DNA from: Fragilaria crotonensis | Lineage: Eukaryota > Bacillariophyta > Fragilariophyceae > Fragilariales > Fragilariaceae | Direction: 5' to 3' | Assembly: GCA_022925895.1 (NCBI GenBank) | Contig: JAKSYS010000535.1 | Location: forward strand, 1 to 43,370 | Length of the DNA stretch: 43,370 nucleotides | Part shown: positions 19,650 through 42,494 of the stretch, one piece after another | How positions within the stretch are numbered: the first letter of the stretch is position 1 | Layout: the number at the start of each line of letters is the position of its first letter | Notes under the pieces: model-generated | The model's input: the letters and a program-made list of their open reading frames with translations, nothing else | Told to the model about the DNA's origin: nothing | Databases searched by the model: none | Made by a program: the position numbers and the translations under genes

Positions 19650-19680
19650 CATCAGGAAGCCCATATCTGTGGTTTGAACA
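19645..19680 (+). repeat. Left terminal inverted repeat of element 1
   Basis: TGCATCATCAGGAAGCCCAT (19645-19664) is found exactly, in reverse complement, at 29298-29317. The match continues inward as TCTGTG and TTT with single mismatches, then ends. Confidence 0.7.
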
Positions 19681-20166
19681 TAAATCTGTGGTCATGCACC
19701 AAGAAAATATGTATTGACCGCATATATCTAACAAAATTTATTCGATTTGAAAATCACTTAGGTTTGTTTAGGTATGTTAACATGATATCTTTGTTTTGTA
19801 CATGGTTATATTTACAAAGGTCTTTTTATACTTATTTGTATCTATGATAGAAATATTTTCACAACAATATCCTATTACTGTATGATTCCTCGGAAAGTTT
19901 ACATACTATCCACTCTTTTGGTCAGATGTTATGTATCTTCTACATCCTTTCCGCACGTTCGTAAGCTTGACGGACGTGCTTCCCTTTTCATCGGTTGTTG
20001 TTCATGCTTTTCGTGTATCTCCTACTAGTATGATACAATCTTCGCGCCATATTTTCCAACAGAAGGCTTAATTTCATTTTGGTGTAAACCATCTTACTGA
20101 CTTGGCATCATCACCAGCCACCACTGCCATTAGTAAGCAAGACGTGGAAGTTGATCAGTTTTCATA

Positions 20167-23131
20167 ATGGCACCAAGCAGCACATCATCAGCATCTCAAA
20201 GTGGAGCCTTCACATGTTTCAATGTCAACTGCTATGCTACGTTCAAAACCGAACGAGGTCTTCGTCAACATTTATGGCGAAGTGCTCCATGTCGCGATTA
20301 TATGTCGGAACCAAGGCCTCTTGCTGCTAGCCTTGACGTAGTTCATGAGTACATGGTCCCGGCGCTTGGGATACGGCGTTGAATCTTCACGTCTAAATCC
20401 TTTTATGAGTGCAGATCCTCCATCGTATGAGCCTTACGAAGTTTTGACTACTCGGCTACTACTTGTAATTTTGACGCAGATGATGGCATTCATGAACAGG
20501 AGGTTGAAATGAACCAGAACTTGTCTACAAGAACAGGCATCGGTGACATTGCTATATCTTGCCCAGTTTTTCATGCCATGATGGAACGCCTTCAAGCGGG
20601 TGATCGCCATGCAATCATGGTATTGCATCATGATGTTGAACATCGAAATATTGTGAATCTCCTCAAGCTTTTGGAGGATGCCCAATGTCCTGACTACATG
20701 TTGCAGAAGGTACTGCAATGGGCATACAATGCTAAGTTAGAGGGCTTTGATTTCAACCCAAAAGCTACAACACGGAAAGCCAACATCCAGTGGATGTACA
20801 AAGCTTTGGAACACTCACACAGAGGACTTCCTAAGGTACTGACAGCGAATCTTGAAGATCACGACAAGGCTCAAGATATTATTTGCTTTGACTTTGTACC
20901 TGCATTATTGTCAATGCTGCAAGACGAGTCATTGATGGTGATGGAAAATCTTGTCATCAATAAGGAGTATCCAATGTCAATGTACATACCAACTGACAGC
21001 AAAGTTGGCGAGGCAAACAGTGGTTCACGTTATCGAGAATTGTACCAACAACTTGCACAAGGAAGGATCAGCTGCTTGTACCAATTATAATGTACCTTGA
21101 TGGCACCGTCATTGACAGCAAGGGGCATATTGATATCTGTCCTGTGTCATTCACAACATCTCTTTTCACTGAGAAAGTTCGTCGTGATGTAAAAGCATGG
21201 CGTCTGCTGGGCTATGTTCCAGACCTGAACCGTGGGCGCTCTGCAGCAATGAATAGCTTTGCAAATGCATGTGCTGAAGAGAAAGGTCGCACTACTCGTA
21301 ATTTCCATAAGGTCATGGATGTGATGATGGCAGGTTGGGTGAAGTGTCAAGCTGGTTTAGATGATCGTTTAAAACACGTACCACTGAAACTTGGTGACAG
21401 GTGGTTTGTTGTCGAACTTGTTTGCCCCTGTTATTTGTCATCAACGATGGCAAACAAGGTGACCAACTTTGTTGCCGAATCAATGGCCATCACAGCAGTA
21501 CATTGCGTCACCATCGTTCATGTGATTGCTTGTATGAAGATCTAGATAATCCTGATGTTGAGTGCACATTCCTATCGACTGAGACAATCAACTACGCATC
21601 TCAACATGGCTCACAAGAGGAGCTCCGCCAGCTTTCAATTTACAGATGTGACAATGCCTTCAATCGTGTTCAGATGGGGCAAAACCCCCACGGCATCTTC
21701 ATGTGTGCAGTTATTGATGTGATGCATACAATTCAACATGGCATCATCATGTATGTTCTCGATTGCTTCAAAAAAAGCCTCAGTGTTCAGTCACTGGCGA
21801 CGCTTGACAAAATGGCTTTTATATTTGACACAACGTGCTGTCAGAGTATTCGCACCTCTTTCCCCAGAACTGATTTTTCCAGAGGAATAACAAACCTCAC
21901 CATGGTGGAATGCTCTGAACAGTCGGGGGCGTTGTTCCTCATTTCTTTCTTCATTATGCAAGCGGAAGGTTGGGAAGTCTTCGATGAGCATTTTCTTCAA
22001 TTGGATGCCGTGTTGGGGACTATGGAAAGCCTTTTATGCTTTGAGGCCTGGCTTGATCAGTACACCTTTTGGGATATTGGAGATCCAGACGGAGAGGCAT
22101 CACAAGCTGAAGCAGCAATTGCTTCTCTGATGAATCTCATCACCACACATCTTCCGAGACACGCTGGCAATGGATGGAAACTGTCAAAATTTCACGAGAT
22201 CAAGCACATCGTACGATTTATTGCTGCGTTTGGAGCACCGCGTGGTTACAATGCCTCCCGTCCTGAGGAACATCACAAGGCACACGCCAAACGTCCTGGT
22301 AGACGTGCACAGAAGAATGTGGACACCATTGACCAGCAGTGTGGCCAAAGAATTGCGGACGCACTCGTGATTGATACTATGCACGCGATGTTCCAAGAAC
22401 GACCTGTTTTGAAGACATCATCACAGCATACTAACCGTAGTCAATTACTGGCTGCTGACGATGTCCAAGATCCTCTGACGAGTGAGTCAGGGTCTGGAAC
22501 GTCATATTACGTAAGGTCATACATTGACCCTATGGATGATAATCGATTGTGTCGTGATGTAATCTTTGACACTCAGACCAGGGGAGACATCGAACTGGAA
22601 GATAATCTTGCACTGTTCATTTTGCAGACTTACAGTGACTCCGATCTCGACGACAATGGGGTGGGCGGTATCTGGTGCCGCACAGAGTACCATAAGTACA
22701 ACATTGAAACAAAGGAGGAGATGGTTTCTGTTCGCTGTCATCCCAACTTCAGGGGAAAGGGGTATTCCTGGTATGATTGGGCTCTCATCCGCTATGAAGA
22801 TGATGAGGGAAATGAGATGGAGTACCCATCTCGCATTGTGAGTTGCATACCACGCCACAGTTGCTTTGGTGGAATTGAAACCACCACGTTTGACCTCATT
22901 ATTCAATGTTGTGGCAAACCAACTGGGCGTGAGTCCTTCCTGTTCACTGAGTGGACATTCGAGAAGGAGTTTCATGTTGTCTCCTCAGAAGCCATTGTTG
23001 GCTTGTGTTTTGTCCCAAGCAACCCTGACCTCGCTGACTCTGATGTCCTTGTTGTAACAGATAGGGACAAATGGGCATCAATGTTCTACGATTCAGCAAT
23101 GGTTGATTACACCATCAATGGTCAAAATTAA
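20167..23131 (+). pseudogene. Plavaka-like (KDZ superfamily) transposase, frameshifted
   Basis: This would cut and paste the element. The N-terminal piece (20167-20382) has a C-x4-C-x12-H-x6-C zinc finger (FTCFNVNC...RQHLWRSAPC), as often seen at the start of Plavaka transposases. The catalytic region follows in changing frames: YLDGTVIDSKG with VRRDVKAWRLLGYVPDLNR, then IDVMHTIQHGIIMYVLDCF, then KFHEIKHIVRFIAAFG with SRPEEHHKAHAKRPGRRAQ, all in the order expected for the family. The C-terminal domain ends at 23131. Frames change at about 20380-20500, 21090 and 21420, so no single product is made as assembled. It overlaps the end of the convergent dioxygenase-family gene by a few bases. The assignment rests on recognised motifs only. 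Confidence 0.75.
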
Positions 23132-25686
23132 GTAGAAACAATATTAAACCATCGGTAACTGGGACATTCCATACATGATGATCCGTGTCTTTGGGGCAAA
23201 GAACGTACCATAGATATTTCCACTCCGAAACCTGTCATGGATGTACCATGCCTGATCAGGCGGCCATCCCATCCAATCAGGACACCATCAGACAATTTGA
23301 TGGCAATTCCGTTGTAGTCCCGATCCGATCCTGGGAATTTCCCCTTCATGTTCGGAAGGACAAAGTACCAATCCTCAGTTGTCCCAGGGTGATCTTCAGT
23401 CCAGATCGTAAACCCCTGACTGGCATCGTTCACATCGTAATGTGTTGAATTTGCCAAATTAATTGACAAGTCCATGCTGTGCGTAACGCGGCACATGCCT
23501 CCGTCCATGCCACCAACATGCTTCATTTCAGAATCATTTTCCAAGTCCTGCATCACTCTGAGGGCAGCCGGGATAGTCACTGATGCAAGCTTTGCCGCAG
23601 CTTGCACAGCCTTCAACAATACCGGGGCAGCATCCACAGTTGATGATGTCACATATGGCACCTTGTTCCAGCATTTTGTGATGCGGCTTCCAATTGGATG
23701 CATTGATCCGAGGTCTCCATTGCCAGCCCTTGCTCCCGTGCTGCTCTTCTGTTTTCTCACCAAGTTGCAATGCCTGTTGATGTCGGTCAGAAGGTCCTCA
23801 CAACCTGATCCAACAACGTTTGGGAGGTACCGGATTTGAACCACAGAACACCGATGGAAAGCAACTTCGCCCGCATTTGCGGGTACAGTGACATCAACGT
23901 GCAAGTCAAGCTCACCATATTTGATTGGATTGATAACAAATGTCGTTAACGGGTCAATGGTCTTGTGCAGAAATCCCGGTGCATAATGGCGACCTCCACG
24001 TTTGGCTGACCTTGATCGCGAGAACGCATCTTGGAATGTCTCAGCTCGAAACTTATGATCAGCACTCAACAACTCATCCTTCTCACCCACAACATAGTCA
24101 GGAGGAAGTCCAGGTCCTTCCTCATCCATCAGTTGCTTCGTGCAGTGAATAGATCTCACAAGTGATCTTGGCATCACCCCCATGATCGCATTGGGAATTG
24201 GCAAGAGGTTTGTGGCGGAGCGCCGAATAGTCCACTTCCAAATGGAACACTTATCAGCATTCGCAAGGTGTGAAACATAAGATCCATCACCGAAGAAGTT
24301 ACCATGAGAATCATGCTGAAGTCGTAACCAGTTTATGTCCATTGGGACATGCGAATTAAGGACCCCAGTTGATCGTGAGCGCCTCTCCCTGTGGCAATAG
24401 AATATGCCAGCTTGGGGAAGGAGGACAATGCATGCACGGTAGAAGTTATCGCTGTTATTCTTCCCTGAAGGGCGAGAAGAAAAAGCATTTCCATCTCTAA
24501 CAGCGATTGCCAAATTGACAGCATCAACATCATCAAATAGACAGACATGCACGGGACTGTCACAGGCATGGGCGTCATCTTTCCTTTTCCTTTTCAAATC
24601 CATAGGACCACTTCTCGAGAGAACACAATCCATGACAATCAGGTCGAGATCGGAATGACTTTCCCCATGACTATACATTTCATCAGGATGTTTGCAGCGC
24701 TTGAGCATGACATACTCAGTACCAAACACATGTTTCAGGGACGAGTCAACCCACTCGATGGGAGTCTTGCAAATCTTCTCGTCACAAAATGCCGATGGAC
24801 CTAGAGCTGACGCCGCCGCCACAACTGCAGGTGGTATTGGAACAGACGCGGCGTTGCCCTTCTTCCGCTTTTGCTTCTTCCGTTTTTGGAGAGGAGGTGG
24901 TCGAAAATTGTTGAACATGACCATGAAAGGAGCAACAGACTGCAAAGGCAGACACTTGGCTATTACATTCGCAACTTGAGTGTGACTTGCCATAGAAAGT
25001 GATGGATGCTCTCGAAGCAATCCAATCTCCAAACCTTTCGTTTCCTTGATTATCTTCCTCGCAGCCTTGACTTCTTTCCTCGTTCTCCCTGTCCCCTGAT
25101 CAGGAAAATTGCTGCCGACAGCAGCATCAGCTTCCATGGTACCGCCAAGTGTGGCAATAGGCACAGACATGGTGTTTTCCGTCAACGGAATGGTCTGTCG
25201 ATTGTTCACTCTTGCCAAAATAATGGCACGGGAGAGCTCACCTGGCAGAGTGCGTTGAAATGGTCCATGAGGGCGAGCACGAATTGGGCGTTCACGCCAA
25301 TTGTTTTCCGCCTTCCCACTCTTTTTTCTTCTGCCGTGGTTTGGTGCTTTGGGATGAAGATGGCAACGTGGTCACAGCATCATCAACAGCACTAGTCGAT
25401 GAACCAGCGTTCTTCAATCCACCACTCACATTTGCCATCAAGACAGCCTTAGTAGACACAACCTTCAACTCAATCTTCACTTTAACTTTGAGCTCAACCA
25501 TCATATCCTTGTCCTTCCTCAACGAATCAGACCTTCTTGCCAAAGTTGAGGTCTTTCCTTCTTGAATAGCCGAACATGGTAGCAGTTTTGAGAAAACTCC
25601 GCCTCGTCTTCCGACGATGAATCCTCAAACCATTCCTTTGTCAACGTCGAACATGAAGTCGTTGAGCACAAAGTCTCTGCCATCAT
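23128..25686 (-). pseudogene. Transposon-borne protein with C-terminal 2OG-Fe(II) dioxygenase-like fold, frameshifted at both ends
   Basis: The main frame (23128-25218, extendable upstream in frame without ATG) gives about 700 aa. The N-terminal half has a basic, nuclear-signal-like run (QKRKKQKRKKGN) and a central conserved block with YRACIVLLPQAGIFYCHRER and WLRLQ, shared with the relic at 41577. The C-terminal part reads STHYDVNDASQGFTIWTED, then DWYFVLPNM, then GVLIGWDGRLIRHGTSMTG. This gives an H-x-D and a distal H placed as in double-stranded beta-helix 2OG-Fe(II) dioxygenases. After TSMTG a shift of one base reads NIYGTFFAPKTRI, a better family-like end than the assembled frame. An upstream N terminus starting MMAETLCS at 25686 lies in other frames, so one or two shifts or an intron occur near 25300-25570. 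A TET/JBP-like nucleic-acid role is inferred only. Confidence 0.5.
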
Positions 25687-25734
25687 AGACAACTGGAGCC
25701 AATCAAAGTGAATGGGCCTCACAAAATTTGTCGT

Positions 25735-26380
25735 CAACGGTGGAGCAAGGAAGCCAACAGCGAGCAACACGCGAACACGACCGGTCGTTGTCGTAACCAA
25801 CAGCCAGCCAGGAACAACCAAATCGACGTCAGCTGAGCTTTATAGATGTAAACGCAAAGCTGAACGCGAAATTGGAAGCCAGCAATTGGCGTGGATCCAG
25901 ACAATGACAGTCTCGCAATATCTGTTATCAGTGGCGGAGCGACGAGAATTCTGCAACGTGACAGCCAACGAAGAACAAATATGCAACGACCTGTCGTCGT
26001 CGTTGTCACCAACAGCCAGCCGTGAACAACCAAATTGACGTCAGCTGAGCTTTATAGATGTAAACGCAAAGCTGAACGCGAAATTGGAAGCCAGCAATCG
26101 GCGTGGATCAAGACAATGACAGTCTCGCAATATCTGTTATCAGTGGCGGAGCGATGAGAAACCTGCAACGTCGTGACAGCCAACAATGAACAAATATGCA
26201 ACGACCTGTCGTCGTCGTTGTCACCAACAGCCAGCCGTGAACAACCAAATCGACGTCAGCTGAGCTTTATAGATGTAAACGCAAAGCTGAACGCAAAATT
26301 GGAAGCCAGTGACCGGTGTGGATCAAGACAACGACAGTGTTGCAAAATCTGTTGCTCGTTGATGGTGGAGCTTCCAAAAC
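25735..26380. repeat. Tandem repeat, about 212-215 bp unit, three nearly complete copies
   Basis: The phrase caacagccagcc recurs with the same downstream sequence; its cagcc starts at 25801, 26013 and 26228, giving periods of 212 and 215 bp. A degenerate partial copy precedes the first and the last decays near 26380. Each unit contains GACGTCAGCTGAGC followed by CTTTATAGATG, a possible TATA-like box. The array lies 50 bp upstream of the dioxygenase-family start (minus strand), where promoter elements would be expected. Confidence 0.9.
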
Positions 26381-27410
26381 ATCAATGCGATACGAAAGGC
26401 AATGAGTGTGACAAGGTTGTCGGGGTCAGGTGCCTAACAGTGAGTGTGTTGTAGTTGAGAAAATTTGACAAAAGAGACAACCGAATCGCCCAATACATTC
26501 GTTGTAGAAAACATACCAAAACTTGTGCATCACGTTGCGAGCAGGAATGCATACAAAGCTTCACTATGCTAAGCATAATTGCAAATTGAACATATAAGTA
26601 CACTAATATTTACTGATATGATTCACATGTAGAATGTGACAGTACTTTCGGTGCTTGTTTTTATTGAGAAAATTTGTCCATCCTGCGAAGTATTCAGTAC
26701 TACTAGGATGTCGTCTTATACCATTGAATCGCCAGTATAGACACTATGAATGTTCATAGCGATACTGCGAGCGGGAAATTGACTCGCTACTTCGCGTAAA
26801 CGGCTACTTTGTCTAAGAAAGTACATGTTGGTGAGTGTATGCTACATTAACACCTGTTTAATATACCAAGAATTACATACAATGTATGATGAACATTATT
26901 AATTCCAAACAACCACATTTTTATTAAATGCATATGATTATATATGCGCATATCAATTCATTTAGCGAGAAATGTATGTTATATATATGAATATAAGCAT
27001 AACATGCAACCACATTTTAATTCAACGCATATGATTATGTATGCGCATATCGATTCATTTAGCGAGAAATGTATGTTATACATACGGATATATGTATAAT
27101 ATGCATATTCAAATGACAAAAAACGAAAATTCAAAACATCTACATATTCATGCATATTTAAACTGATCATTTGAAGAAGTATATTGAATGTGAATACTTA
27201 TGTGTAACGTTCAGTATAAATCATCTTCCCCTAAGGATATGCAGATTTTTGAAACGCATGTGAATAACTTTGTCAAGACTTCGAAATATTGAACAAGTCT
27301 TGTGCTCGCACGAAAACAAAACAGAACACATGTCAGCCGAGTGATCTTGCCATATGCTGGCTTTTTGTTCTCGCGTTTAAAGAACACACCCAAAGATCAG
27401 GGTAGTCTCT
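26381..27410. other. AT-rich spacer between the divergent genes of element 1
   Basis: About 1 kb of very AT-rich DNA. It includes a 97-bp tandem duplication starting at 26911 and 27008 (shared cattTAGCGAGAAATGTATG and CATATGATTAT blocks, several mismatches). Many CATATG / ATGCATAT words could form hairpins. It should include the promoter of the accessory gene at 27411. No gene is called. Confidence 0.6.
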
Positions 27411-29024
27411 ATGGCAGGAGGTCGTGGTCGAGCAGGACGACGACAACGTGGTGGAGGTGCTGGGAGAAGTGGTCGAGGAGCTAGAGGTGGTCCTCCTCCT
27501 CGTCCTCCGCCTCCTCCTCCGCCTCGTCCTCCGCCTCCTCCACCTCCTCCACCTGCTCCACCGGATCATGCGGCTGCTGCTGGCAACAGTGTTGAAGATT
27601 CTCCAGCTACACGAACACGACGACAACTGATGCTTGCGCTTCAAGCAGGTTCTAATTCTGCTGATTGTCATGATGGTGGTCGTGAGGGTCGCGGTCGTGC
27701 TGCTGATGTCACAGAAGATTCTTCAACTAGAAGAAGGACGCGTCAACGACTTGCTGCAGCTTCTCATGTAAGTGCTCCCGCTAATGCTCATATGATGCGA
27801 AGATTGTTTGCCGACACAGACGGAAGTGAGGAGGAGGATGATGATGGAGAAGACGACCCTGCTTATGATGAACCTGCTGTTGCAGCTCCCATTCATGCTC
27901 CAGCAACAGACGGGCGACAAGTTGGTCACGAAGGGGTCATGCAATATGGGAACAGACTGACAAATGTGGGAAAAGATTGGTTGCTTGAGAAGTGTGTGAA
28001 AGAGGATGTGTTTCCCAAGCAGAAGTTTGCAAATTTGAATGGTGATCTTGACTTCAGCAACAACCGTAATTCCATCTGCAGATTCATGGCGGAAAAATGA
28101 AAGTTCAGGAAGCGGATGTGGAAGGTTGGTGGGAGAGTTCAAGAAAGCTGTCCATAAGAAACTGAAAAACCATAGGAACAATGTGATCAAAACAATAAAA
28201 ACAAAATTCAACGGTGAGATGGTGGCGACTGATTTCTGTGACATCATGCTGGCAATGCACTATTTCTTCTAACACCCTACTCTTCTCTGGCTGATATTAC
28301 CACAGATAATATACTAGCTGTAACAAACCGGGAATTCCGCTTGCGGAGCATCATGGGAATGAGAAGTCTCCCATCAAGGCCAGCATATGTAGAGTTGTTG
28401 GATTGTCTTGCGAGGGCAGTGGTTGGACGTAAAGTGTACGTTGATAACAGGATGACTAAACCATTGAGTGAATGGTTTACACTGACAGACGAGGCATTTC
28501 TACTGTTGTGCCTAGAGTCGTATGTACCGAAGTGGAATCGGGAATGGGCTCAAAGTTCTCGTGCTCCGATAGCAGCAGCAGCAGAACGGCAACAAGAAGG
28601 AGAGCAAAAAGAAGGCGACGGTGAAGACGCATTGTACACAGGGAGAAGCCGAGGAACAAAGCGCAGCTGGTCAAAGGATGGATTAGAGCGATTCAATGGG
28701 CTTATGGTTGATGTTTATCGGGACCGACAGGCAAATGGGGCCAACTTTGACAACATTTTCAGAGAGGAGATGATCAAAAGGTATGGCAAACAAAATGACA
28801 GCGCAAATCCAGCACGAGGGGGAGAAGATGATCAAGCAAATCCTGAAAATCGTGTTGTTGTAGTGTACAGTGACTTCAACATGGAACAGCTTATGGCTCA
28901 TGCCACAGCTGCCAGTGCTGTTGGCGCCGGTAGAGAAGCAACAAGAGGAGGGCAGCAAGAACAAGGTAATGATGATGATGATGATGATAGTCATACAGAA
29001 GAAGTGAGCAGAGTAATGGTATGA
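27411..29024 (+). pseudogene. Element 1 accessory protein, frameshifted in the middle
   Basis: The first frame (27411-28100) starts at ATG and encodes an RGG-rich and proline-rich N terminus (GRGRAGRRQRGGG, PPPPRPPPPPP), acidic patches, and a conserved-looking stretch DWLLEKCVKEDVFPKQKF. After FMAEK the coding passes through another frame (KKAVHKKLKNHRNNVIKTIK, to about 28270) and then into the frame of 28341-29024. The last part has TLTDEAFLLLCLESYVPKW and GLERFNGLMVDVYRDRQANG. The DEAF-LL-Y-KW block is shared with the accessory protein of element 2 (SDEAFGLLLIDNYMEKW). The function is unknown; the basic, low-complexity N terminus could bind nucleic acid. The divergent position to the dioxygenase-family gene is conserved between the two elements. 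Confidence 0.6.
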
Positions 29025-29282
29025 AAATCAACCGTACAATAAATATACCAAACCGTTTCTACACACCTCCCCCCCTAAAAACTCGCGGAATAAATTTCGC
29101 GGAATAAATTGAAAATATTAGCTGCGACCAATTTGTCCAAAGTATTTGTACATAAATATCCACAACATTTCTATATAAAGATGTCAATTTTGTAAATTAA
29201 TACTTATAACTTTCTAAGTAAAGAGAACAGAATCTGTCTCAAAAAACCAAAGAAATAATTAGAATGAAATATAAATAAATAT
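29025..29282. other. AT-rich end segment of element 1
   Basis: This is AT-rich DNA between the accessory gene and the right terminal repeat. It has an imperfect short direct repeat tcgcggaataaatt (29083-29110). No gene is seen. Confidence 0.5.
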
Positions 29283-29317
29283 TTAGAAATCACAGAAATG
29301 GGCTTCCTGATGATGCA
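29283..29317 (-). repeat. Right terminal inverted repeat of element 1
   Basis: Reverse complement of the left repeat; the 20-bp core is at 29298-29317. Read inward it goes CATCAGGAAGCCCAT, T, TCTGTG, A, TTT, differing from the left end at two of the first 26 positions. Confidence 0.7.
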
Positions 29318-32082: not shown

Positions 32083-32172
32083 TTGGCTCTTGAGCCATTG
32101 GCTCTTGAGCCAGAGGCTGTTGAGTCATTGGCTCTTGAGTCATTGGCTCTTGAGCCACTGGCTCAAGAGCCA
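32083..32172. repeat. 15-bp tandem repeat, cluster 1 (six units)
   Basis: The unit TTGGCTCTTGAGCCA is repeated six times with substitutions; the last unit has the inner bases inverted (GGCTCAAGAGCC). Each unit contains the near-palindrome GGCTC-TT-GAGCC. Confidence 0.9.
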
Positions 32173-32402
32173 GTTTACTTCGTCGAACTAGTCGAGGAAC
32201 GTGTTTTCCTTAAATGAGAACTCGCCAAACGGGGAAAGAAAGAAATGACAGGTCATCTATGGTTGCTATATAGCATTTTCTGTAAGCATCGGCGAAACAA
32301 TATTCAAGTATGAAGAGAATACATCAAGCAAATGACAAGCTCTATGACACACAAAAAAGTGTGTTCTTGAGTTTGACTTCGTCGGGGGCTGTTGTTCAGC
32401 CG

Positions 32403-32462
32403 TTGGCTCTTGAGCCAGCGGCTCTTGAGCCAATGGCTCTTGAGCCAGCGGCTCTTGAGACA
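32403..32462. repeat. 15-bp tandem repeat, cluster 2 (four units)
   Basis: The same unit (nnGGCTCTTGAGCCA) occurs four times, 230 bp after cluster 1. An open frame on the minus strand reads it as repeated Ala-Gln-Glu-Pro-Leu, but the frame has no other features and is not called as a gene. Confidence 0.9.
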
Positions 32463-32886
32463 ACGGCTGCCGACACTTCAGATGTCTTATATCCTTAAGT
32501 AGGATTTCATAAGACGTCGATTCCATTGTCGCAAAGTCTAAGCTCAAGTTCTTTACTTAAAGCTCAAAATTTGTCACGTCATGCAATTAATGTACCTAAT
32601 GATCCGGACATTTGAAGGGGTGATGGAACGTGGAATATTTGTCCGGCGTGATGAACGAAGTTATAGAATTAGTACTGTATACGTAGCCACTAGTATACAC
32701 TTAAAGGTAAAAATTCCGGAACCTCCAGTACGACGCCAGTCCGACAAAGATTCGGGCGATGGCCAGTTGATCTCTACTGAATCCTACGTATTCTACACGG
32801 TTTAAATCGGGAACTTTTAAATGTTCAATTGGGAACAAATTCCCAAAATAAGAAATAAGAAAAAGCTCCCAAAATAACACAGCCTG

Positions 32887-32894
32887 CTGTGGGC
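32887..32894 (+). repeat. Right 8-bp target-site duplication (CTGTGGGC)
   Basis: Identical to the copy at 31007-31014. Confidence 0.85.
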
Positions 32895-32938
32895 TGGTTC
32901 GGACGAGAGATTTGATCATTTTATCAGCAAAAAGTGTT

Positions 32939-32955
32939 GGGGGGGGGGGGGGGGG
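32939..32955 (+). repeat. Poly-G run, 17 G
   Basis: An uninterrupted run of 17 G lies about 50 bp to the right of the hAT-like element. It may form a G-quadruplex and its length is likely uncertain in the assembly. Confidence 0.9.
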
Positions 32956-33432
32956 CACAACGGCAAAACTGCAAAACTCAGAATCCGATCGCTGAATCGG
33001 CACTTTATAGGCACATAGGCGAAAAAAATGCGCCGTGTTACGTCAACTTATAACGCTCATGCGGGAACCCCGGAGTCCCTACACGTCTCCAAGGAGGACA
33101 GGAGCACATCAGAACGGGTGGGAACGGCTGCGTCAGTCGATGAACATGGATGCGAACCCAAAATTCGATATTGCTTAATTATGCGCATTCGTATTATGAG
33201 ATTGTTCTCAATGCGAAGTACGCAACATGTTTTGGGAATTTTCGTCCCTAAACAATCTCTATTTCTACTCCGTGAAAAATTCTTCTATCGCACGCGAGAG
33301 TTCATCCCGAACAGTTTCAGTTTCAGTCCAAAAACAGCAACAAAACTACACTTGAGTGCTCGTACTCTACCAGCAAGGGAAGAAGCAGCTGTTTCAAACC
33401 AACGACCACCTCATAACTCCCATTGCGTCAAT

Positions 33433-34777
33433 ATGCCAATGCCCAGAAGAACTCCTTCCGATGAGGACTCAGGTGAAGCGCAAACCTCGACAATTGAGCA
33501 TTGCAACAAGCGAGGCAATCAACATGGATCAAACATCCGCGATAACAACCAAGGGCCTTATGCACCTTACACAGCGACGGCTTACTTGTCGATCCCGTTC
33601 CCCTGTCTCAGTCAGAGAATCATATGCGAGGCGCGAGAAAGCACCAATCGGGATGCGATGGTGCCGCGCGTCGTCGGCCATGAGTTGCATTCTCGCTCGT
33701 TTCAGTCTCCTTCTCTCGAGACCGTGTCACAATTGACTGAGGCATTATCCAACAGATTCCCTCGGGGCGCGAATCCGAACACACAGTTTGATATGATGTA
33801 CCTTAGTGCTGCGGCCAATGGAACTCACCCATCGTCCATAAGGACAACAGAAGCGCCGTTTAATAGCAGAGATGAACGTCGTCAGGTACGTCTCCCGGGG
33901 TCATTGCCGCATGTTGAGTCAGGTCACACACTAGTATTGCAAAATTCTAACACTGATCACGATCAACAGCAACGAAACATTGACGTTGGAAGCATCCAAT
34001 CCTACGCCAGGATGCATGCGGATGCTATGAATGAAATCGCTATGTCAGGGACATTGGCAATGCTGTATGGAGGCCAAGGTCTCGCCGCGAATCAAATGCC
34101 GGTTTTACTCGCTCATCGCATTCGGAGACAACAGGAGCTCGATTTGCAAAAGCGTGTTCACTTCCTTGAGGCATCCGCCATGCTCGCAAGGAGGCAAATA
34201 TCCCAATGTCTGGGGGAAGCAAATAACAGGCAGCATGTGCAGTTGCACGTTGATGTTCCTTTCAGGTCACCATCGACTATTTCCGACGACAACGAAAAGC
34301 ATGACCTTCAGGCCGCACCATCCTCTGTCTCAACAAGCGCACTCTTATCCGCTGCACAGGCGGCAGAGCGCGCAAGACCATTCTCACAGCACGAGGAAGA
34401 TCAGATTCCAGTTATCGGTGGCTCCGAAACGTTTCCTATGGTACTTCATCGAGCCCTCGCTGAGTTGGAATTCAACGGCCGCCACGCGGACATTGCTGAA
34501 TTTCTTCCCGACGGTAGGACCTTCCAAATCAAGAACCAGACCTTCTTTGAAGAAACCATTCTTCCAACCTTCTTTCCCAAGATGAAATGTTTCGCAAGTT
34601 TTCAGAGGCAGCTCAACCTCTATAATTTTAAACGTGTCGGAGGGAAGGGTTTGCCAGGGGCCTATACAGACACGAGCTTTCATTCGCGATAATCCCGCTC
34701 TTTCCAGTGGCATGCGGCGCATCAAGAAGAAACCGCGCCAACTAGGAAGTTGTGCGAGCGTCAGTGGTGACCATTGA
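33433..34777 (+). CDS. HSF-domain transcription factor with C-terminal DNA-binding domain and an apparent frameshift
   Basis: This is predicted to be a nuclear heat-shock-factor-family regulator. The frame is open from 33028, but the ATG at 33433 (MPMPRRTPSDED) gives a better start. The first about 330 residues are low-complexity and polar with no clear domain. The DNA-binding domain follows: TFPMVLHRALAELEFNG, IAEFLPDGRTFQIKN, FFEETILPTFFPKMKCFASF and QRQLNLYNFKRVGGKGLPGAY, including the recognition-helix F-x-S-F-Q-R-Q-L-N-x-Y pattern with A for the first S. The assembled frame stops at 34692, but after GAY a one-base shift reads RAFIRDNPALSSGMRRIKKK and ends at 34777, the normal end of this domain. 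A base error or recent mutation near 34660-34672 is likely. No hydrophobic heptad region is seen. Confidence 0.75.
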
Positions 34778-35726
34778 CTCGCTTTGCAAAACCCACTTCA
34801 CAGCAGCACGGTCGTGGCGATATAAGAATCCTGAATACATATTCTATTATTCAAAGCCAGCTCAAATTGAACGTTTCTCAACATCGCCACAGGAAATGAT
34901 GCGATGATTTACCAAATAACTCAATTTAAGACATCTTTGTTAATGTTTCGAAAAATGGTTCTTCTGTATGAGGACTGTGTTATCAACAATCGTTTGGTGT
35001 AGGACTGAATCCTTGCAAAAGAAACAAAAAATGCTCTCTTGGTGATACTAGTAGATTTTTTCAAGCGCCTTGTTTAGAAAGCCAACAATCTGCATAAGGA
35101 TCTCGACCGACATTTCGCCGTACCCACCACTGAAAGTCTTGAAAGTGATCCGTCCTGTCTCGTATGAGGCTCCGTTTTGGTAGGATTGTCACGGTTGAAA
35201 GCTGCGAGAGCAACAGCCGAGAATCGTCTATTGTGCTCAGGAGTAATCCTTTGGTGTCTCTGTTGTTTCTCCTAGAGGAGGGTCCGACCACGCAGTCGCG
35301 ATCCTGAGAAGGCCGTCGATATGTAGGCGTTCTTCGTTACAAGATGTTTATTCTTCGGAAGCATATGCTGCAAAAGGAGGAGGGAGTCATTGGGTAGGCT
35401 TGAGGTGAATGTATGATCGATGATATACTGCGTACCGCTGTACAAACGAAATGAACGCACACGTTTCAGAGCCAGACGACAGTTTTGGAAATGACTCCTG
35501 CTTACGATAGTAGAACTCGAGTACTCCAGAGTCCAGAGAGCATTTCCTTTTTGCGCGAGACTTCAGCACATCGCGGAGGACTGCAATCAATTTAGCGTTT
35601 GTATTGAAAAAGGTTGATACGAGATTTCGTTTCGTCATTGATGAGCAAAAAACTAATCGCTTTTGCTGCGTGATGATTCGAACTTCGAACTTCGAACTTC
35701 GAACCCCATTTGAGGTCCTTGTGAGG
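34778..35726. other. Spacer downstream of the HSF gene
   Basis: No supported gene. The minus-strand frames at 35061-35291, 35272-35460 and 35387-35638 are short and lack motifs. Four copies of TTCGAAC (35677-35704) lie at its right end. Confidence 0.45.
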
Positions 35727-35760
35727 TACTACAGTACTACAGTACTACAGTACTACAGTA
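35727..35760 (+). repeat. 8-bp microsatellite TACTACAG, four copies
   Basis: Four exact head-to-tail copies plus TA. The unit is an expanded form of the GTAC-type word common in the spacers of this window. Confidence 0.9.
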
Positions 35761-35774
35761 TGGAGAATATGAGT

Positions 35775-36275
35775 GTCACGTGGAGAGTGATCATGATATG
35801 ATGTCCTCTTGAAGTGTTGTGAGTTGTGAGTTGTGACAAGCCATCATTATTCTCGTATGTACTTGTACAACGATCTGGTAATGTGCGTGACGTCGAAGCG
35901 CGGATGGCCTCCACCTTCTCATAGCCTCTTAGAGTCACGTGGAGAGTGACACATTATGAATCATGATATTATGTCCTCTTGAAGTGTTGTGAGTTGTGAG
36001 TTGTGACAAGCCATCATCCATCATGATTCTCATATGTACATGTACAACGATCTGGTAATGTGCGTGAAGTCGAAGCGCGGATGGCCTCCACCTTCTCATA
36101 GCCTCTTAGTGTCACGTGGAGAGTGACACATTATTATGAATCATGATACTATGTCCTCTTGAAGTGTTGTGAGTAGTGAGTTGTGACAAGCCATCATTAT
36201 TCTCATAAGTACAACGATAATGTGCGTGACGTCGAAGCGCGGATGGCCTCCACCTTCTCATTTCTCATAGCCTCA
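35775..36275. repeat. Tandem repeat, about 159-177 bp unit, three copies
   Basis: GTCACGTGGAGAGTGA marks unit starts at 35775, 35934 and 36111; the third unit decays near 36275. Each unit has a CACGTG box and, about 110-120 bp later, gcgTGACGTCgaagcg (TGAAGTC in the second copy). These are cores of bHLH- and bZIP-type sites, so the array could be regulatory, but no start site lies immediately next to it. Confidence 0.9.
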
Positions 36276-36899
36276 TAGGCATAGAAAAGAATGCAGCATA
36301 GAACCAAGATGACGTACATAGTGGTATGCCACCCACGTTTGCAGTAGCCCATAGTCCATACCAAGTACTCGGACTGCTACTATTCCGGACTTATTCCGGA
36401 CTTTTGGCGTTTCTGACGTATAATACCAGGTATCGCATATTTGTATTGTTAACAGAATTTCTACACATAAATTCATTCCCCTTGACGCTTCATAATCTCT
36501 CTTTCCTTCCCTATCCCTGGGTGGTGGGTGGGAATTTAACTTTCTATCTCTACCGGTATGTAGTCGTTGTCTTGGTCGAATTCGTTCGGAGTATGTGAGA
36601 ACGTGAGAACTCATTCTTCCTGGAGGTTGTCTGTCTGTCTGTTCAGTCGGCCTGCCTTCTCGCACATACGAGTACCAGGCAGCCTCGTAATGTGGGAATG
36701 TCAGGCTCGTGTCTGATTACGATTAACAACGACCACTTATTGGCTGCATTGGTAAAAATGAATTGTAATGACTTCTGGGACGACTGATAGCGCATTCATT
36801 TTATTGAGTATATGAACGATTGTTTTTTTTCGAAATTTTTGACAGAAGCACTATGAGAGGTGGGTTCAGAATTCATATCTTTTGGATATACTGTGTACA
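36276..36899. other. Spacer without a supported gene
   Basis: Two overlapping frames on opposite strands (36326-36598, 36273-36665) have no motifs. The sequence becomes AT-rich near 36740. Confidence 0.4.
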
Positions 36900-36949
36900 A
36901 ATTTGATTGAATAGTGACTTAAGTTAAGTTCAGAAGGGGGAAGGGGGAG

Positions 36950-37415
36950 CAGTACATTATTGTATGGACCACGAAGCAATGCTATGTTGTCTGGGAAAAA
37001 TCTGATGATGATGACAATTATATAGAATCATTGGGCAGTGACTACAATTAGGAGGATGAAAGTTCTGACAACTAAAGTTCTACCAGCAAGAGTCCACGGA
37101 TGATGAAGAAAAAATGAGGAAAAGTGGCACAACAACTGCGCAGCAGAAGTTGGAAGATCAACTTAAAACATCAGCAAAGCTGTGTAGGAACAATTTTGGG
37201 CTCTTTAATGGTAGTTGGATGCCTTTGATGACAACTCTTGAGTGTGTGGAAAATTTCCTGCAGCTTCAGATGGTATAAGCCTAGTGCTTTCCTCCACGAA
37301 TTCTGTGAATGATGATCTGGTCGTGTCAACCATCAACTCCAACAATGGTGAGGACACATGATTAGGTCATTGAGCAACCCAGCGCAGCCGAATGATGCAT
37401 GCCTGGTGAGCCATA
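36950..37415 (-). pseudogene. PIF/Harbinger transposase, C-terminal half, split by element 2
   Basis: Read on the minus strand from 37413, one frame gives HASFGCAGLLNDL. This is the Harbinger block usually preceded by W-x-W and followed by N and a loop region. Further down, IKEPK appears in place of the family IKEP stretch. Many stops and shifts interrupt it, and its left limit is uncertain. The matching N-terminal half lies at 42495-43070 on the same strand. Confidence 0.6.
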
Positions 37416-37428
37416 CATCAGAAGGTGC
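37414..37428 (+). repeat. Left end of element 2 (TA plus 13-bp terminal inverted repeat)
   Basis: TACATCAGAAGGTGC; the exact reverse complement is at 42480-42494. TA is either a 2-bp target duplication or part of the terminal repeat. Confidence 0.75.
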
Positions 37429-37833
37429 AAAATGTTTACTTTATTTTTACTTGGTAAGAGTTACCGAGTAATGACCTCCGATCTGTAACATCTCAACTAT
37501 AAATGGTTACTATGACCAATTTTGTTGATAAAACCATAAAATGTTGTCTTTCACCAATTTAATCACAATCTAATGTTACAAATCAACATATTTGGCTAGA
37601 TATGACCTTTTGAGCAACTATATTTGTTTGTCTTGATCACTGTTTTATGGTTGCTCCTTGCAATTTTTGTTCATTAATTTGTTGTTCAGTAACCAAACAG
37701 ATGTTGCTTTTTCACCAGACGTTGTATCCTGTAAGCATTTCATTCTACAAATAGTATACAGCTATTTTCTTTGCATATTGGCTCATCGTAGTGCTAGAAG
37801 AAATGTTTAAACTAGTCTCTCAAGTCCATTTGC
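37429..37833. other. AT-rich end segment of element 2
   Basis: About 400 bp of AT-rich DNA between the left terminal repeat and the accessory gene stop. The word AAAATGTTTACTTTAT (37429-37444) recurs in the same orientation at 42425-42440, close to the other end. No gene is seen. Confidence 0.5.
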
Positions 37834-39552
37834 TTAGTCGTCCAAGTCCCATGCTGCCTCGACCGGCAGTGCTTCAGTTCCTTCCGCCGCATTGTTGTTA
37901 CCATGACCCTCCTGTTCGTGTTGTGCATTGTTGTCATCTATTCCCGCCTGAGCCCTGCAAAATGCCATCAACTCCCCTTTCCATTTGTTCCGATTGCGCG
38001 CTTGCTCGGTCGTCTTGAACAAGATTGTATAGTTCATTGAAACGTGCAGTTCCATCACGGCTCCACCCACCATACTTGCAGTGCCCATTTTTTTTTTTGC
38101 TGTATACCTTCCTGGGATTTTTGCCGCCGCCTTCTTCTTTTGCCTGTTGCCGTTGGTTCCCACCTGTCTCGCTGTATTGTCGACGTCATGATTGTTAGCA
38201 ACTTCATTAGCGCGTGCCTTTTCCTCCTCTGCCAGAACGGTAACCCACTTTTCCATATAATTATCGATGAGCAACAAACCAAACGCTTCATCACTTTTAG
38301 TTACAAGTTTTCCACCACGCCCATCTGCGGCTTTTGACACCAACGTGGTCTTCTTTGCATTTCTCCACTGCCTTGCCCCGCATACACATTCCAAGAACGT
38401 GTCAAAGAACCAGAAGAATGCATTCTTCTCTCTTTCTGTTGTTGCTCTCCTGAGCTTACAGAATTCGTCAAAACTGTAAAACTCTTCTCCACGTTGTTTG
38501 AACTCGGCGATTGCTTTCCTTGCAAGTGCCCCACCTGTTTGTTCGCACGAACTCCTCTTCGTATTCAATGCATGATTAAAACAACTTTCGTACAGCATTT
38601 GAAAACTTACACGCTTGTTAGGCTCCACTTTTTCATGATTCATCACCAACTGGAATGCTCTTTGGAACATTGCGTCGTTATTAATGAACTTGATTCGGCG
38701 GAATACATCTGATTTAACCAATTGAGTAACACGATCTGCCACATGCTTCTCTTGCTTCTGAATAGATTCAGCCTTTGACAAGCCACGAACCGAAATGCCA
38801 ACATCAATAATCTGACGTGACGGCAACATGACATTAGGATTTGAATTGTTTGGAGGATCCACTGCACCTTGTTGGGTACTGCGGTTCAACTCCTTGCGAC
38901 GAGCCTCAGCCCTCATTGCTGCGGCTTCTGCCTCGTCCTCCATTTCCCTTCGATACCCATTGTATCTCTGTCGACGTCCCCTGCTGTCATCCTCATCTGA
39001 TGAAGTTGACGACCAGCCATGCTTTTCCTTATTTTCAGCGTCGTTGTTGTTGGCGGGTTCCTTCTGTCCCCCGTCGTCATCACTTGATTCGTCCTGCACA
39101 GCATCCTCATACACCTCCTCTTCATCATCCTCCTTGTCATCGTTCTCCTCGTCAACATACTCCTCTGATTCGGATGTGCTTTCAATGTCATCGAGTATCA
39201 ACTTCTGTACCACCGATTTTCTTGGTTTAATTGACTTTCTCTTCTTACCAGCACCAGCAACACGTTTCTTTTTGTTCTTGGTGGTCACACTTTCGACAGC
39301 ATCGGATTCGTCACCATCAGGTTTGCCCTTGTCACCATCCGCCGGATCATTCGTTGTTTTTGTACGCTTATGATTTGCAGCAGCAGCACTTTCATTTACC
39401 TTCTTTCGTTTGTTATTTGTCGTTTTCGTAGTCTTTGATCCTCCGCCTTTCGTTACATGCTGCTGTAGTTGTGCAGCTCCGCCTTTACGGGTGCGTGCCT
39501 GCTTCTTGCGTGGTGATGTCCAAGAAGCTGCTTTGGCTGCTCCTCTGGCCAT
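37834..39552 (-). CDS. Element 2 accessory protein, intact, about 572 aa
   Basis: The ATG at 39552 (MARGAAKAASW) is preferred; the frame opens 9 codons earlier at 39579. The N-terminal third is highly basic with nuclear-signal-like runs (KNKKKRVAGAGKKRKSIKPRK region, about residues 90-120), followed by a long acidic Ser/Glu/Asp-rich stretch (about 130-200). The C-terminal half is a folded-looking domain: LVKSDVFRRIKFINNDAMFQ, a helix-rich part with FFWFFDTFLECVC, and SDEAFGLLLIDNYMEKW. The last block matches TDEAFLLLCLESYVPKW of the element 1 accessory protein at 9 of 17 positions. The function is unknown; a DNA-binding or chromatin role is inferred from composition only. It is divergent from the dioxygenase-family relic. 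Confidence 0.7.
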   Translation of the reverse strand: MARGAAKAASWTSPRKKQARTRKGGAAQLQQHVTKGGGSKTTKTTNNKRKKVNESAAAANHKRTKTTNDPADGDKGKPDGDESDAVESVTTKNKKKRVAGAGKKRKSIKPRKSVVQKLILDDIESTSESEEYVDEENDDKEDDEEEVYEDAVQDESSDDDGGQKEPANNNDAENKEKHGWSSTSSDEDDSRGRRQRYNGYRREMEDEAEAAAMRAEARRKELNRSTQQGAVDPPNNSNPNVMLPSRQIIDVGISVRGLSKAESIQKQEKHVADRVTQLVKSDVFRRIKFINNDAMFQRAFQLVMNHEKVEPNKRVSFQMLYESCFNHALNTKRSSCEQTGGALARKAIAEFKQRGEEFYSFDEFCKLRRATTEREKNAFFWFFDTFLECVCGARQWRNAKKTTLVSKAADGRGGKLVTKSDEAFGLLLIDNYMEKWVTVLAEEEKARANEVANNHDVDNTARQVGTNGNRQKKKAAAKIPGRYTAKKKMGTASMVGGAVMELHVSMNYTILFKTTEQARNRNKWKGELMAFCRAQAGIDDNNAQHEQEGHGNNNAAEGTEALPVEAAWDLDD

Positions 39553-39579
39553 GATGCATGTATCTTTAACTACAAGCAA

Positions 39580-40390
39580 GTGTGAAAAAGGAAGTGTGAG
39601 AAAGGCAACAATTCGTAGGATTCGTGTATGCTACATCATGCGTTTTGAATCAGATAGGGATTTTTGAATGCGAAGCAGTTCGCCATGTTTGTTTAATATA
39701 TACCGTCACATGATTAAAACATATTTTTTTATAGTACAAATCAACATACATGCGTAAGATGTATCATGTGTTGTGTTTGAATGCAGGTTGATGGTCAGTA
39801 CTCAACAGCTGAGTTTTCCGTTACGGCGTAAGTCATACGTTATGTTTAGTCGTATCTGTTGTTGACATTCCCGCATTCCTGCATTCGTTTCATTGTTTGT
39901 ACCGCAACCACGTAGCATTGCATATATATATATATATATAAGAGTCTATTTTTACCACTATTTGTTTTACTTAGATACATTATTATGTTCAGTATACACA
40001 ACTATTAATAGTAGTTCATACTACTTCAGAGTTTGTATCGACGAAAAATCAGATTTACATAGAGAGTTATTGTAGTTATATAAGAATCATAAAAAATTGA
40101 TTTCTAACTGCTACGTACCATGTAGTAGAAACTGTGCGTACAATTTTTTAGTCATTTCCCATGACAGCAATATGGCATACATGTACATAGTTAATTAGTT
40201 TAGTATAAATTACATATTTGTATACTTATATACGTCATGTGGTTATACACAACATATACAAGCATTTCCTAAGTAGTTTGAGTTCCTGTACTCAAGTCCC
40301 AGGTGCAGAATCGCCTCTTTTTTGCATAGTAAACTGATCCCTTTCGTGCGTTATGTGTTCCTGTTGTCAATACTTGACACCACAAGCAAT
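39580..40390. other. AT-rich spacer between the divergent genes of element 2
   Basis: It includes a TA dinucleotide run (about 39921-39940) and AT-rich sequence with many CATAC / TATAC words. It corresponds in position to 26381-27410 of element 1 and should contain the accessory gene promoter. No gene is called. Confidence 0.6.
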
Positions 40391-40421
40391 TGCACAATTG
40401 CTTCTCAGAAGCAATTGTGCA
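40391..40421. repeat. Perfect 31-bp palindrome, 15-bp arms and 1-nt centre
   Basis: TGCACAATTGCTTCT (40391-40405), C, then its exact reverse complement (40407-40421). Its right arm forms the start of the first tandem unit. It could form a hairpin or bind a dimeric protein. Confidence 0.95.
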
Positions 40422-41111
40422 TTCGTTTGCTTCGCGATTGTCACCATTGCTGTCGGATCCTCGTTCTCCTCGCCAATTCGACGATCAGAGGCTCATTCCC
40501 CGCCAGAAAGCAGGGAGAGTTGCCATTGAGTTGTCGAAGACGCGCTCGCATTCCCACCAGTGGGAATCGTTGCGAGGAACTTAACTGACATCGTGCATTC
40601 GTTTGCTTCGCGATTGTCACCATTGCTGTCGGATCCTCGTTCTCCTCGCCAATTCGACGATCAGAGGCTCATTCCCCGCCAGAAAGCAGGGAGAGTTGCC
40701 ATTGAGTTGTCGAAGACGCGCTCGCATTCCCACCAGTGGGAATCGTTGCGAGGAACTTAACTGACATCGTGCATTCGTTTGCTTCGCGATTGTCACCATT
40801 GCTGTCGGATCCTCGTTCTCTCGCCAATTCGACGATCAGAGGCTCATTCCCGCCAGAAAGCAGGGAAAGTTGCCATTGAGTTGTCGAAGACGCGCTCGCA
40901 TTCCCACCAGTGGTGGTCGTTGCGAGGAACAGAAGTGACATCGTGCATTCATTTGCATCGCGATTGTCACCGTTGCTGTCGGATCGTTCTCGCCAATTCG
41001 ACGATCAGAGGCTCATTCCCGCCAGAAAGCAGGGAGAGTTGCCATTGAGTTGTCGAAGACGCGCTCGCATTGCCACCAGTGGTGGTCGTTGCGAGGAACT
41101 GAACTGACATC
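40417..41111. repeat. Tandem repeat, about 169-176 bp unit, four copies
   Basis: GTGCATTCGTTTGC-type unit starts are at 40417, 40593, 40769 and 40943, and the array ends at GTGC 41112. Periods are 176, 176, 174 and 169 bp. Copies 1 and 2 are practically identical, while 3 and 4 differ by small deletions. The unit holds an inverted repeat ATTCCCAC-CA-GTGGGAAT in the first two copies. Open frames running through it on both strands are by-products. The array ends 38 bp before the ATG at 41150. Confidence 0.95.
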
Positions 41112-41149
41112 GTGCGGCCTTTACTTGCCAGAAAGCAAGGGAGGGCCCG

Positions 41150-42094
41150 ATGTCGCATAATCGACGCGGTGGTGATAGGGTCGCGGGCATGGGCAATAAG
41201 ACTTCCGTGCAAGACGTCGGTGCTAAATTTGGGAAGACACCGCGAGTGCCAGGATTGCATGTTGTGGACGAGAAGAAGGATGCAAAGAAACAACTCCCAG
41301 CAAAGCGCAACGAGCGGGAGAGTCTCCCGACAAATAGGAGGATTATGAGGCTGTTGTCGATGGCGGTTATTCCTGAGGAGAGGAGTGCTTTCAGGCGACG
41401 GTTCCGGCGGGCAAGCAAGGATGAAAGGAAGCATGCAAAATCAGAACAAAGCAATCTGTGCCACGTTCCGATGAGTTGGATCGCCAAAGCTTTTCAATGC
41501 GAGCCGTTCCAGCTACGACGGGCGGGCGACATGTTCCCGCGCGGATTGAATCGAGTTCCTTAATGAATTTTACATTATGGATGTCATTCTGAACCGGGCG
41601 CCTTCATCAGCAGCAGTGACAGGGGCTCCATCTGATCACAAGAAACAACCTGTTGTTGATCCGGACGTGGTCCGACCGTTTCGATTGTACCAGCCGGATG
41701 ATGCTCTACCTGAGAAGGATTATTGTTATAGGGCTGCTATCCTTTTCTTACCCCAGTGCGGCGTGTTCTACTGTCATAGGGAGCGTCAGGGAGATGTTGG
41801 TGTGCCGGGCTCATTCATAGCCCATGACATGAGCTGGCTACGCCTGCAACGTGAGGTGATGTGGTGGTCGAGGTGTCATACAAGTTTGGCAGCGACAGCT
41901 TTGTGAAGCGATTTTATACTGAGCATACGGGCCATTGTGTCTATCGTGATGAGCATGATATCAGTTCTGGTTGGCACTTCCTTGATGAGAATCACCGCGT
42001 GTCAGCGTGGAGGATTTCCACTGGGAGAACACACCATTCCCAACAGAACCGAGACAAAACAATGTTGAAGAACAAACACAGATTAGTATACTAA
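41150..42094 (+). pseudogene. Dioxygenase-family relic of element 2, catalytic half missing
   Basis: The first frame (41150-41563) has a basic N terminus (RRIMRLLSMAVIPEERSAFRRRFRRASK region) and ends in a stop. The next frame (41577-41906) contains YRAAILFLPQCGVFYCHRER and WLRLQ, closely matching YRACIVLLPQAGIFYCHRER and WLRLQ of the element 1 protein. A third frame runs to 42094. The H-x-D and distal H region present in element 1 has no counterpart here; the sequence goes directly into AT-rich DNA. This looks like an internal deletion that removed the catalytic half and the neighbouring transposase. Confidence 0.65.
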
Positions 42095-42479
42095 CGGGCG
42101 AGGAAAAAACAAAACGTTCTGTACTTTTGCGTTTAAAGTGACAAACAATATTACAAAAACATCGTAAATTGGGGAACAAATGACAAAATATGTTTCTAAT
42201 CAACTGAAAAAAGCTACAATTGTTACGTAGAAACAAGTAAAAAATTGTGGTTGGTATGCAAATAACATAATTTGTTGACAGATAGTTATAGTAAAAACGA
42301 AATGTTTCTTCCAGTAACCAAATTATAAATTGCACTAAACAACAATGATAGCATCAAGCAACATTTGTTTGAGTAATCACAAAGTTACGTTCAATGTGTA
42401 CTATTTGTACATGTTTTCTAAACAAAAATGTTTACTTTATAACAAAATCAATAACAAATTATGACCATATGACCATAAC
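42095..42479. other. AT-rich right end segment of element 2
   Basis: AT-rich DNA with no convincing gene; a minus-strand frame (41961-42335) is rich in F, C and I and looks accidental. It corresponds to the segment inside the left end of element 1. Confidence 0.5.
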
Positions 42480-42494
42480 GCACCTTCTGATGTA
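42480..42494 (-). repeat. Right end of element 2 (13-bp terminal inverted repeat plus TA)
   Basis: GCACCTTCTGATGTA, the reverse complement of 37414-37428. Confidence 0.75.

Follow-up and report, generated by a model that had tools for sequence, protein, structure and literature searches.

Two transposons in one stretch of Fragilaria crotonensis DNA raise the question of what a tandem repeat array is for when it lies directly 5′ of a gene's start. The stretch (the window: all 43,370 nucleotides analysed, contig C487 of the 62.1-Mb, 881-contig assembly searched) holds element 1 (19650..29312) and element 2 (37416..42492), which share a gene for a predicted dioxygenase, with a tandem array upstream of it, and an accessory gene that lies divergently beyond an AT-rich spacer. 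The original prediction was that the array has a job as promoter, transposase-binding site or modification target. Evidence of function is presented below, and none of the three jobs is the best fit: because ATGs are missing and hairpins lie on the sense strand, a transcribed leader fits better. We infer the leader, the methylation and the protein function alike, and hold with more confidence than doubt that the stretch is a structured messenger RNA (mRNA) leader, free of upstream AUG codons, of an element-borne anti-silencing dioxygenase.

An ATG-free stretch upstream of the dioxygenase

The features that define the question are the following.

Element 1, 25687..26379, minus strand: ATG-free stretch 5′ of the dioxygenase, 696 nt between the ATGs at 26382 and 25686; proposed leader
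Element 1, 25784..26353, minus strand: tandem array, 215 bp x 2.7; no ATG on the sense strand of the unit
Element 2, 40356..41149, plus strand: ATG-free stretch 5′ of the dioxygenase, 797 nt between the ATGs at 40353 and 41150; proposed leader
Element 2, 40417..41115, plus strand: tandem array, 176 bp x 4.0
Element 2, 40502, 40678, 40852 and 41021 (array units) and 41127 (just past the array): candidate GC-CAGAAA-GC hairpin cores

In both elements the arrays occupy most of the ATG-free run. A survey of the genome covered 45 stretches 5′ of dioxygenase genes, each of at most 1600 bp plus 150 bp inside the open frame, which blastn grouped into 23 families; random control stretches were drawn from 24 contigs of the assembly. 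The dioxygenase starts used as anchors are open-frame edges and therefore imprecise, several lying inside broken genes (e.g. L039, L043). The anchor of L006 was too far upstream and missed its own array; the correct start yields an array and an 875-nt ATG-free run. Family counts are unaffected by this anchor or by that of L034 (discussed below), L006's family being represented by L052.

Thirteen of 14 array units carry no ATG on the dioxygenase-sense strand, where about 44 would be expected. Over all 14, dinucleotide shuffles give an expectation of 45.3 sense ATGs, and four are observed; these four are all in cluster 8, whose array sits far upstream. CAT, the antisense equivalent, is not depleted in the same units (66 vs 49.6 expected). 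The longest ATG-free sense run exceeds 381 nt in 16/23 families when fixed representatives are used and in 17 with the best locus, versus 0/23 for the antisense strand; 381 nt is the longest run among 40 random strands, whose own 0/40 is thus by construction. Median longest runs are 695 nt (sense), 156 nt (antisense) and 212.5 nt (random), with a Wilcoxon p of 2e-7 for sense vs antisense, and the runs of some loci (e.g. L019, L029) reach the sequence end and are lower bounds. The ATG that closes the run starts a dioxygenase frame of at least 200 codons, or one open to the sequence end, at 11 of 30 loci (run lengths: L002, 705 nt; L008, 360; L010, 693; L017, 505; L019, 1062; L029, 1038; L030, 414; L031, 866; L047, 933; L052, 876; L053, 604). 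The other genes of the elements lack such runs: those at seven accessory and three transposase starts measure 7-150 nt, and the longest ATG-free run within about 1 kb 5′ of six accessory genes is 95-243 nt.

Tandem arrays upstream of the dioxygenase

Big arrays, defined by a tandem period of at least 80 and a score of at least 250, are enriched just 5′ of the dioxygenase start, as predicted. They are present in 14 of the 23 upstream families, compared with 3/20 random 1750-bp stretches and 1/15 host stretches of the window (Fisher p = 1e-4 vs the 4/35 pooled controls, p = 0.002 vs the 3/20 random stretches). A further control inside or downstream of genes gave 2/39, namely L006 (a leader array, through its misplaced anchor) and L008 (an array within the open frame). 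The expected spacing of about 40-50 bp between array and start survives as proximity and not as a distance: element 1 has 98 nt between the two and element 2 has 35 nt, while nine loci range over 12-232 nt. Separately, at L008, L009 and L042 a further tandem array, with a period of 96 or 168 bp, extends into the dioxygenase open frame or lies within it, so the N-terminus of the dioxygenase may repeat too.

Minisatellites are common in this genome, as the random and host stretches show, and the arrays might be a by-product in which hairpin-prone sequence slips during replication and yields minisatellites without selection. The frequency of arrays upstream of the dioxygenase argues against this, and slippage would explain neither the absence of ATG on one strand nor the dispersed hairpins of array-poor families; we consider it quite improbable.

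In 11/11 families compared, the array has a higher observed-over-expected ratio of CpG dinucleotides (CpG o/e) than the coding part of the dioxygenase; it also exceeds the remainder of the stretch in this ratio (p = 0.02). For element 1, the values are 0.66-0.68 in coding parts, 0.96 in host sequence and 1.24 in the array; the accessory coding part of element 2 is not CpG-poor (0.94). The contrast between array and coding sequence is suggestive only.

Hairpins in the leader

The array units of the two elements had been described as unrelated in sequence, and blastn finds no link between the arrays of elements 1 and 2. In the wider group, units that are unlinked by blastn often share a sense-strand core C-CATNNW-G with pairing arms. 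Examples are TTGTTA-CCATCCAG-TAACAA, CCCTG-CCATACAG-TGGG and TTGTTG-CCATACAG-CGACAA. Over 48 distinct contexts in 19 families, unselected for pairing, the mean number of consecutive outer pairs is 2.71 vs 1.53 for re-dealt arms (0/2000 shuffles), and with one context per family it is 2.74 vs 1.72 (p = 0.0005), both statistics treating families as independent of shared descent. When a pairing rule is imposed, a hairpin with a CAUCCA-type loop is found in 12/23 families and 19/45 stretches. Its density per 10 kb is 16.7 on the sense strand (one stretch per family), 0.47 on the antisense strand and 0.14 in random DNA (1 match in 70 kb), a sense excess over random DNA of about 117-fold. In alignment A4, whose rows were picked for pairing and are thus biased, 82% of cells pair and covariation is 0.61 vs 0.29 shuffled. 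Clusters 4, 9 and 14, whose arrays are small or absent, also carry dispersed hairpins with the same loop.

Across the whole genome, GTTRCCATCCAGTRAC occurs 132 times vs 3 for its reversed control, and CCTGCCATNYAGYGGG 46 times vs 0. Among 29 loci of CCTGCCATNYAGYGGG, a known accessory match lies within 6 kb upstream in 16, all divergent, and a known dioxygenase lies downstream in 2. Among 17 loci of GTTRCCATCCAGTRAC, drawn from 100 of the 132 places, a same-strand dioxygenase lies downstream in 8 and a known accessory upstream in none. The element 1 array unit folds below its shuffles (z -3.16 sense, -1.38 antisense), as does that of element 2 (z -2.40).

The core CATCCAG resembles the CATCAG of the element ends, a likeness that may be fortuitous or point to a recognition site common to both. 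In CACTA/EnSpm elements the subterminal repeats bind transposase, and the diatom arrays could be a transposase-binding region of that sort, as the resemblance would suggest. The arrays, however, are kilobases away from the ends, in the interval that separates the dioxygenase from the accessory gene, and their position is set by the dioxygenase start and not by the element ends, so that this role appears very improbable.

A different rival places the target in DNA: the accessory protein or the dioxygenase would bind motifs of the array, hypomethylation would spread from there in a VANC-like manner, and family differences would stem from co-evolution of protein and target. The CpG contrast bears on this, with an array excess over the rest of the stretch at just p = 0.02 and the value of 0.94 for the element 2 accessory gene telling against it. 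A DNA target gives no reason to expect that ATGs should be missing from a single strand or that the hairpins should be oriented in the sense direction alone. Since ATG loss is strand-specific and the hairpins are oriented, a role in RNA is favoured, and the DNA target, although the logic has a known precedent (below), is rather doubtful.

Element plan and recurrence

On re-inspection, the gene order, strands, arrays and ends of both elements are all as the original prediction gave them, and the shared motifs of both protein pairs are genuine. The mirror image between the elements is one of orientation only. The plan itself was right for accessory gene, spacer, array and dioxygenase and omitted a transposase, present in element 1 and in a full-length relative of element 2. 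The remaining features of the window are as follows.

Element 1, 19650..19664: left terminal inverted repeat (TIR) CATCAGGAAGCCCAT; AT target duplication 19648-19649
Element 1, ~20167..23131, plus strand: Plavaka-type transposase; open pieces in several frames, a broken copy
Element 1, 23131..25686, minus strand: predicted TET/JBP-fold dioxygenase; window copy frame-broken near both ends
Element 1, 26354..27400: AT-rich spacer, 35% GC
Element 1, 27412..29024, plus strand: accessory gene; two same-frame open pieces with stops (or an intron) between them
Element 1, 29298..29312: right TIR ATGGGCTTCCTGATG; AT target duplication 29313-29314
Element 2, 37416..37428: left TIR CATCAGAAGGTGC; TA target duplication 37414-37415
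Element 2, 37837..39555, minus strand: accessory gene, open
Element 2, 39556..40352: AT-rich spacer
Element 2, 41150..42080, plus strand: dioxygenase relic; remainder and transposase missing relative to C85:19020-28197
Element 2, 42480..42492: right TIR GCACCTTCTGATG; TA target duplication 42493-42494

The element 1 spacer also holds two 97-bp AT-rich repeats (26910-27105) with a CpG o/e of 1.88 at 28% GC. Outside both elements are two arrays of the palindromic 15-mer TTGGCTCTTGAGCCA (32083-32468) and a 177-bp x 2.8 array with a CpG o/e of 0.87 (35790-36261).

Relatives abound in the genome. With pieces merged by hand, relatives of the element 1 dioxygenase are found at 52 or more places, those of the transposase at 55 or more, and those of the two accessory types at no fewer than 54 and 67; all are lower bounds, since the searches scored restricted numbers of candidates (60/423 for the dioxygenase; 73/330, 76/404 and 141/141 for the others). 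The divergent pair recurs at many loci, as anticipated: in 20 of 23 accessory-dioxygenase pairs at most 12 kb apart, the accessory gene is upstream and on the opposite strand (13 with the element 1-type accessory, 7 with the element 2-type). It lies downstream of the dioxygenase in the other three, two of which, on C30, involve a neighbouring element. The transposase is downstream and convergent in 16 of 17 transposase-dioxygenase pairs within 12 kb (15 loci). From these orientations the full plan follows: transposase > < dioxygenase / leader with array / AT-rich spacer / accessory >.

L053 (C85:19020-28197), the full-length relative of element 2, spans 9.2 kb between the same ends. It contains the accessory gene, the spacer, a 176-bp array, the dioxygenase and the transposase, and is itself frame-broken in places. 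Compared with it, element 2 is an internally deleted copy that has lost the transposase and most of the dioxygenase. Near-identical left flanks of element 2 occur on C487, C474 and C674 (L066, L067, L068), with right flanks on two of them; because the flanks are shared across contigs, the region was probably duplicated together with the element. At C30:89330-99795, an element 2-type copy (89658-99537) has pieces of an element 1-type accessory gene on either side and was, on that account, probably inserted into that gene.

Transposon class and ends

Elements 1 and 2 are, by their sequence, copies of Plavaka-type cut-and-paste DNA transposons. The element 1 transposase is related to transposases on C147 (E 5e-57) and C5 (E 4e-66). 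The Pfam Plavaka model PF18759 is matched, above the cut-off, by these two window-related transposases, L036 (E 9e-12) and L037 (4e-12), and by part of the L053 transposase (1.1e-6); the window's own two transposase fragments, two L035 pieces and two L053 pieces do not match it. CATCAG-type ends bracket both elements, as had been noted, and recur on further copies. CATCAG or CTGATG is present in 26/26 ends read (4 in the window, 22 elsewhere). These 26 belong to a set of 32 places that a similarity search with the ends of elements 1 and 2 brought up. Target duplications are 2 bp in 6/8 independent two-ended copies (AT, TG, CT, TA, GA, GA; chance p = 1.5e-6); of the other two copies, one has a 3-bp duplication (ATT) and one, on C30, has none. 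A ninth two-ended copy (C474) was dropped for sharing flanks with element 2.

The dioxygenase and the accessory protein

Both protein pairs prove to be related, as the shared motifs had suggested. The element 1 dioxygenase matches the relic of element 2 with a BLASTP E of 2e-14 over 49 residues, and the element 1-type matches the full-length element 2-type at E 7e-27 over 416 columns. An open copy of the element 1 gene (L002 on C659) is 99% identical. The predicted structure (predicted local distance difference test score, pLDDT, 74.0; predicted template modelling score, pTM, 0.81) has a TET/JBP fold, a double-stranded beta-helix of the TET kind; its top PDB matches by VIA-align are TET2, CMD1, CcTET and NgTET. 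With these, the model shares the fold and the HxD...H metal triad (H465, D467 and H529, invariant in alignment A1), at an identity of just 8-12% over aligned parts. The fungal PE-type dioxygenase was likewise recognised by structure, according to the account in Kojima 2025 (PMC12730594).

The two accessory types match in a profile comparison without shared rows (probability 98.4, E 4.3e-15, 148 columns). A role as a regulator that binds nucleic acid is probable for the accessory protein.

Points against the leader

A number of observations weigh against the proposed leader and its enzyme. The big array is absent in 9/23 upstream families, and no long ATG-free run is found in seven (clusters 4, 5, 12, 14, 18, 19 and 20, the cluster 12 stretch being shortened by the available sequence). 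At 19 of the 30 loci, the run-ending ATG begins a shorter reading frame or lies in another frame, in part because copies have decayed. At L034 (C482), the start codons of the divergent pair are only about 175 bp apart, too close to accommodate a long leader or an array; its anchor was set 520 nt too far upstream, and with either start no long ATG-free run is seen. The hairpin with the CCAT core is absent from the families of elements 1 and 2, and scans of folding along these elements find the sense strand no better folded than the antisense. G-U pairs are no commoner than in shuffled arms, so that RNA structure is only weakly favoured over DNA structure. Unsupervised k-mer tests, run on both strands, performed no better than shuffles. 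None of the dioxygenases tested matched a Pfam TET model, even at E values as high as 1. For the accessory protein there is no confident fold match, the best falling below the tool's informative level, a point that also counts against the DNA target described above. Lastly, it is from the absence of ATG that we infer the mRNA leader itself.

Relation to known systems

The original prediction knew of no described family with this plan, and this does not stand: TET-carrying Plavaka transposons with CATCA..TGATG ends have been published in fungi (Kojima 2025, PMC12730594). PlavakaB, as characterised there, has such ends with 2- or 3-bp target-site duplications, and all fungal TET-carrying Plavaka elements are placed in it. 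The diatom elements resemble them in Plavaka transposase, predicted TET/JBP-fold gene, ends and 2-3 bp duplications. They differ in host, in the invariant HxD where the fungal PE type has HxE (PMC12730594), in the recurring divergent accessory gene, and in the ATG-free, often tandem-repeated, hairpin-bearing stretch 5′ of the dioxygenase. The main text of PMC12730594 contains no mention of diatom, stramenopile, algae or tandem repeat. Outside fungi, the Plavaka giant repeats of Amoebidium similarly have gene cargo adjoining a Plavaka transposase; by the description in PMC11244446, they differ in being gene clusters of up to 50 kb in which many genes encode tyrosine recombinases. A literature search on diatom or stramenopile Plavaka, TET, tandem repeats and upstream AUGs, with few subscription papers covered, found among the papers listed no title or abstract matching these elements or the leader.

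VANDAL transposons have a transposase of another class than Plavaka. The VANC/VANDAL system of Arabidopsis is nonetheless, by analogy, the closest in logic. As presented in PMC5735166, an anti-silencing protein there targets, at the level of DNA, repeats that vary from family to family. The likeness lies in an element-borne anti-silencing function, presumed for the diatom, and in tandem repeats that differ between related elements; the diatom arrays, found in 14/23 upstream families, also vary between relatives. Unlike VANDAL, for which no dioxygenase is named in the covered part of PMC5735166, the diatom elements show an ATG loss and a hairpin orientation that suggest RNA and not DNA targets.

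Proposed mechanism and significance

In the proposed mechanism, the ATG-free stretch would be transcribed as the leader at the 5′ end of the dioxygenase mRNA and kept without upstream AUGs so that the dioxygenase gets translated; part of the promoter may lie inside the array or leader. The repeated hairpins would control translation or RNA stability, probably through a bound protein. The dioxygenase would then oxidise methylcytosine on the element and weaken host silencing. In Phaeodactylum tricornutum, where DNMT5a is lost, methylation is lost as well and young elements are overexpressed, as reported in PMC9998398. Because methylation is thus linked to curbing young diatom transposons, a TET-like enzyme on an element would counter that restraint, and a TET-based counter to silencing has been proposed for fungal elements in Kojima 2025 (PMC12730594). 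An unlikely variant makes the hairpins an RNA address: the accessory protein or the dioxygenase would bind the nascent leader and bring TET activity to the transcribed copy, and divergence of loop and stem would keep families apart.

As a leader, the stretch would let the dioxygenase gene alone be expressed and controlled separately; it precedes the presumed anti-silencing gene and not its two neighbours. TET-like enzymes carried by transposons have been reported from fungi, and these elements add a diatom, in a genome that offers dozens of natural variants of the element. If the proposed leader is real, it would give a transposon a route to control its own de-silencing enzyme.

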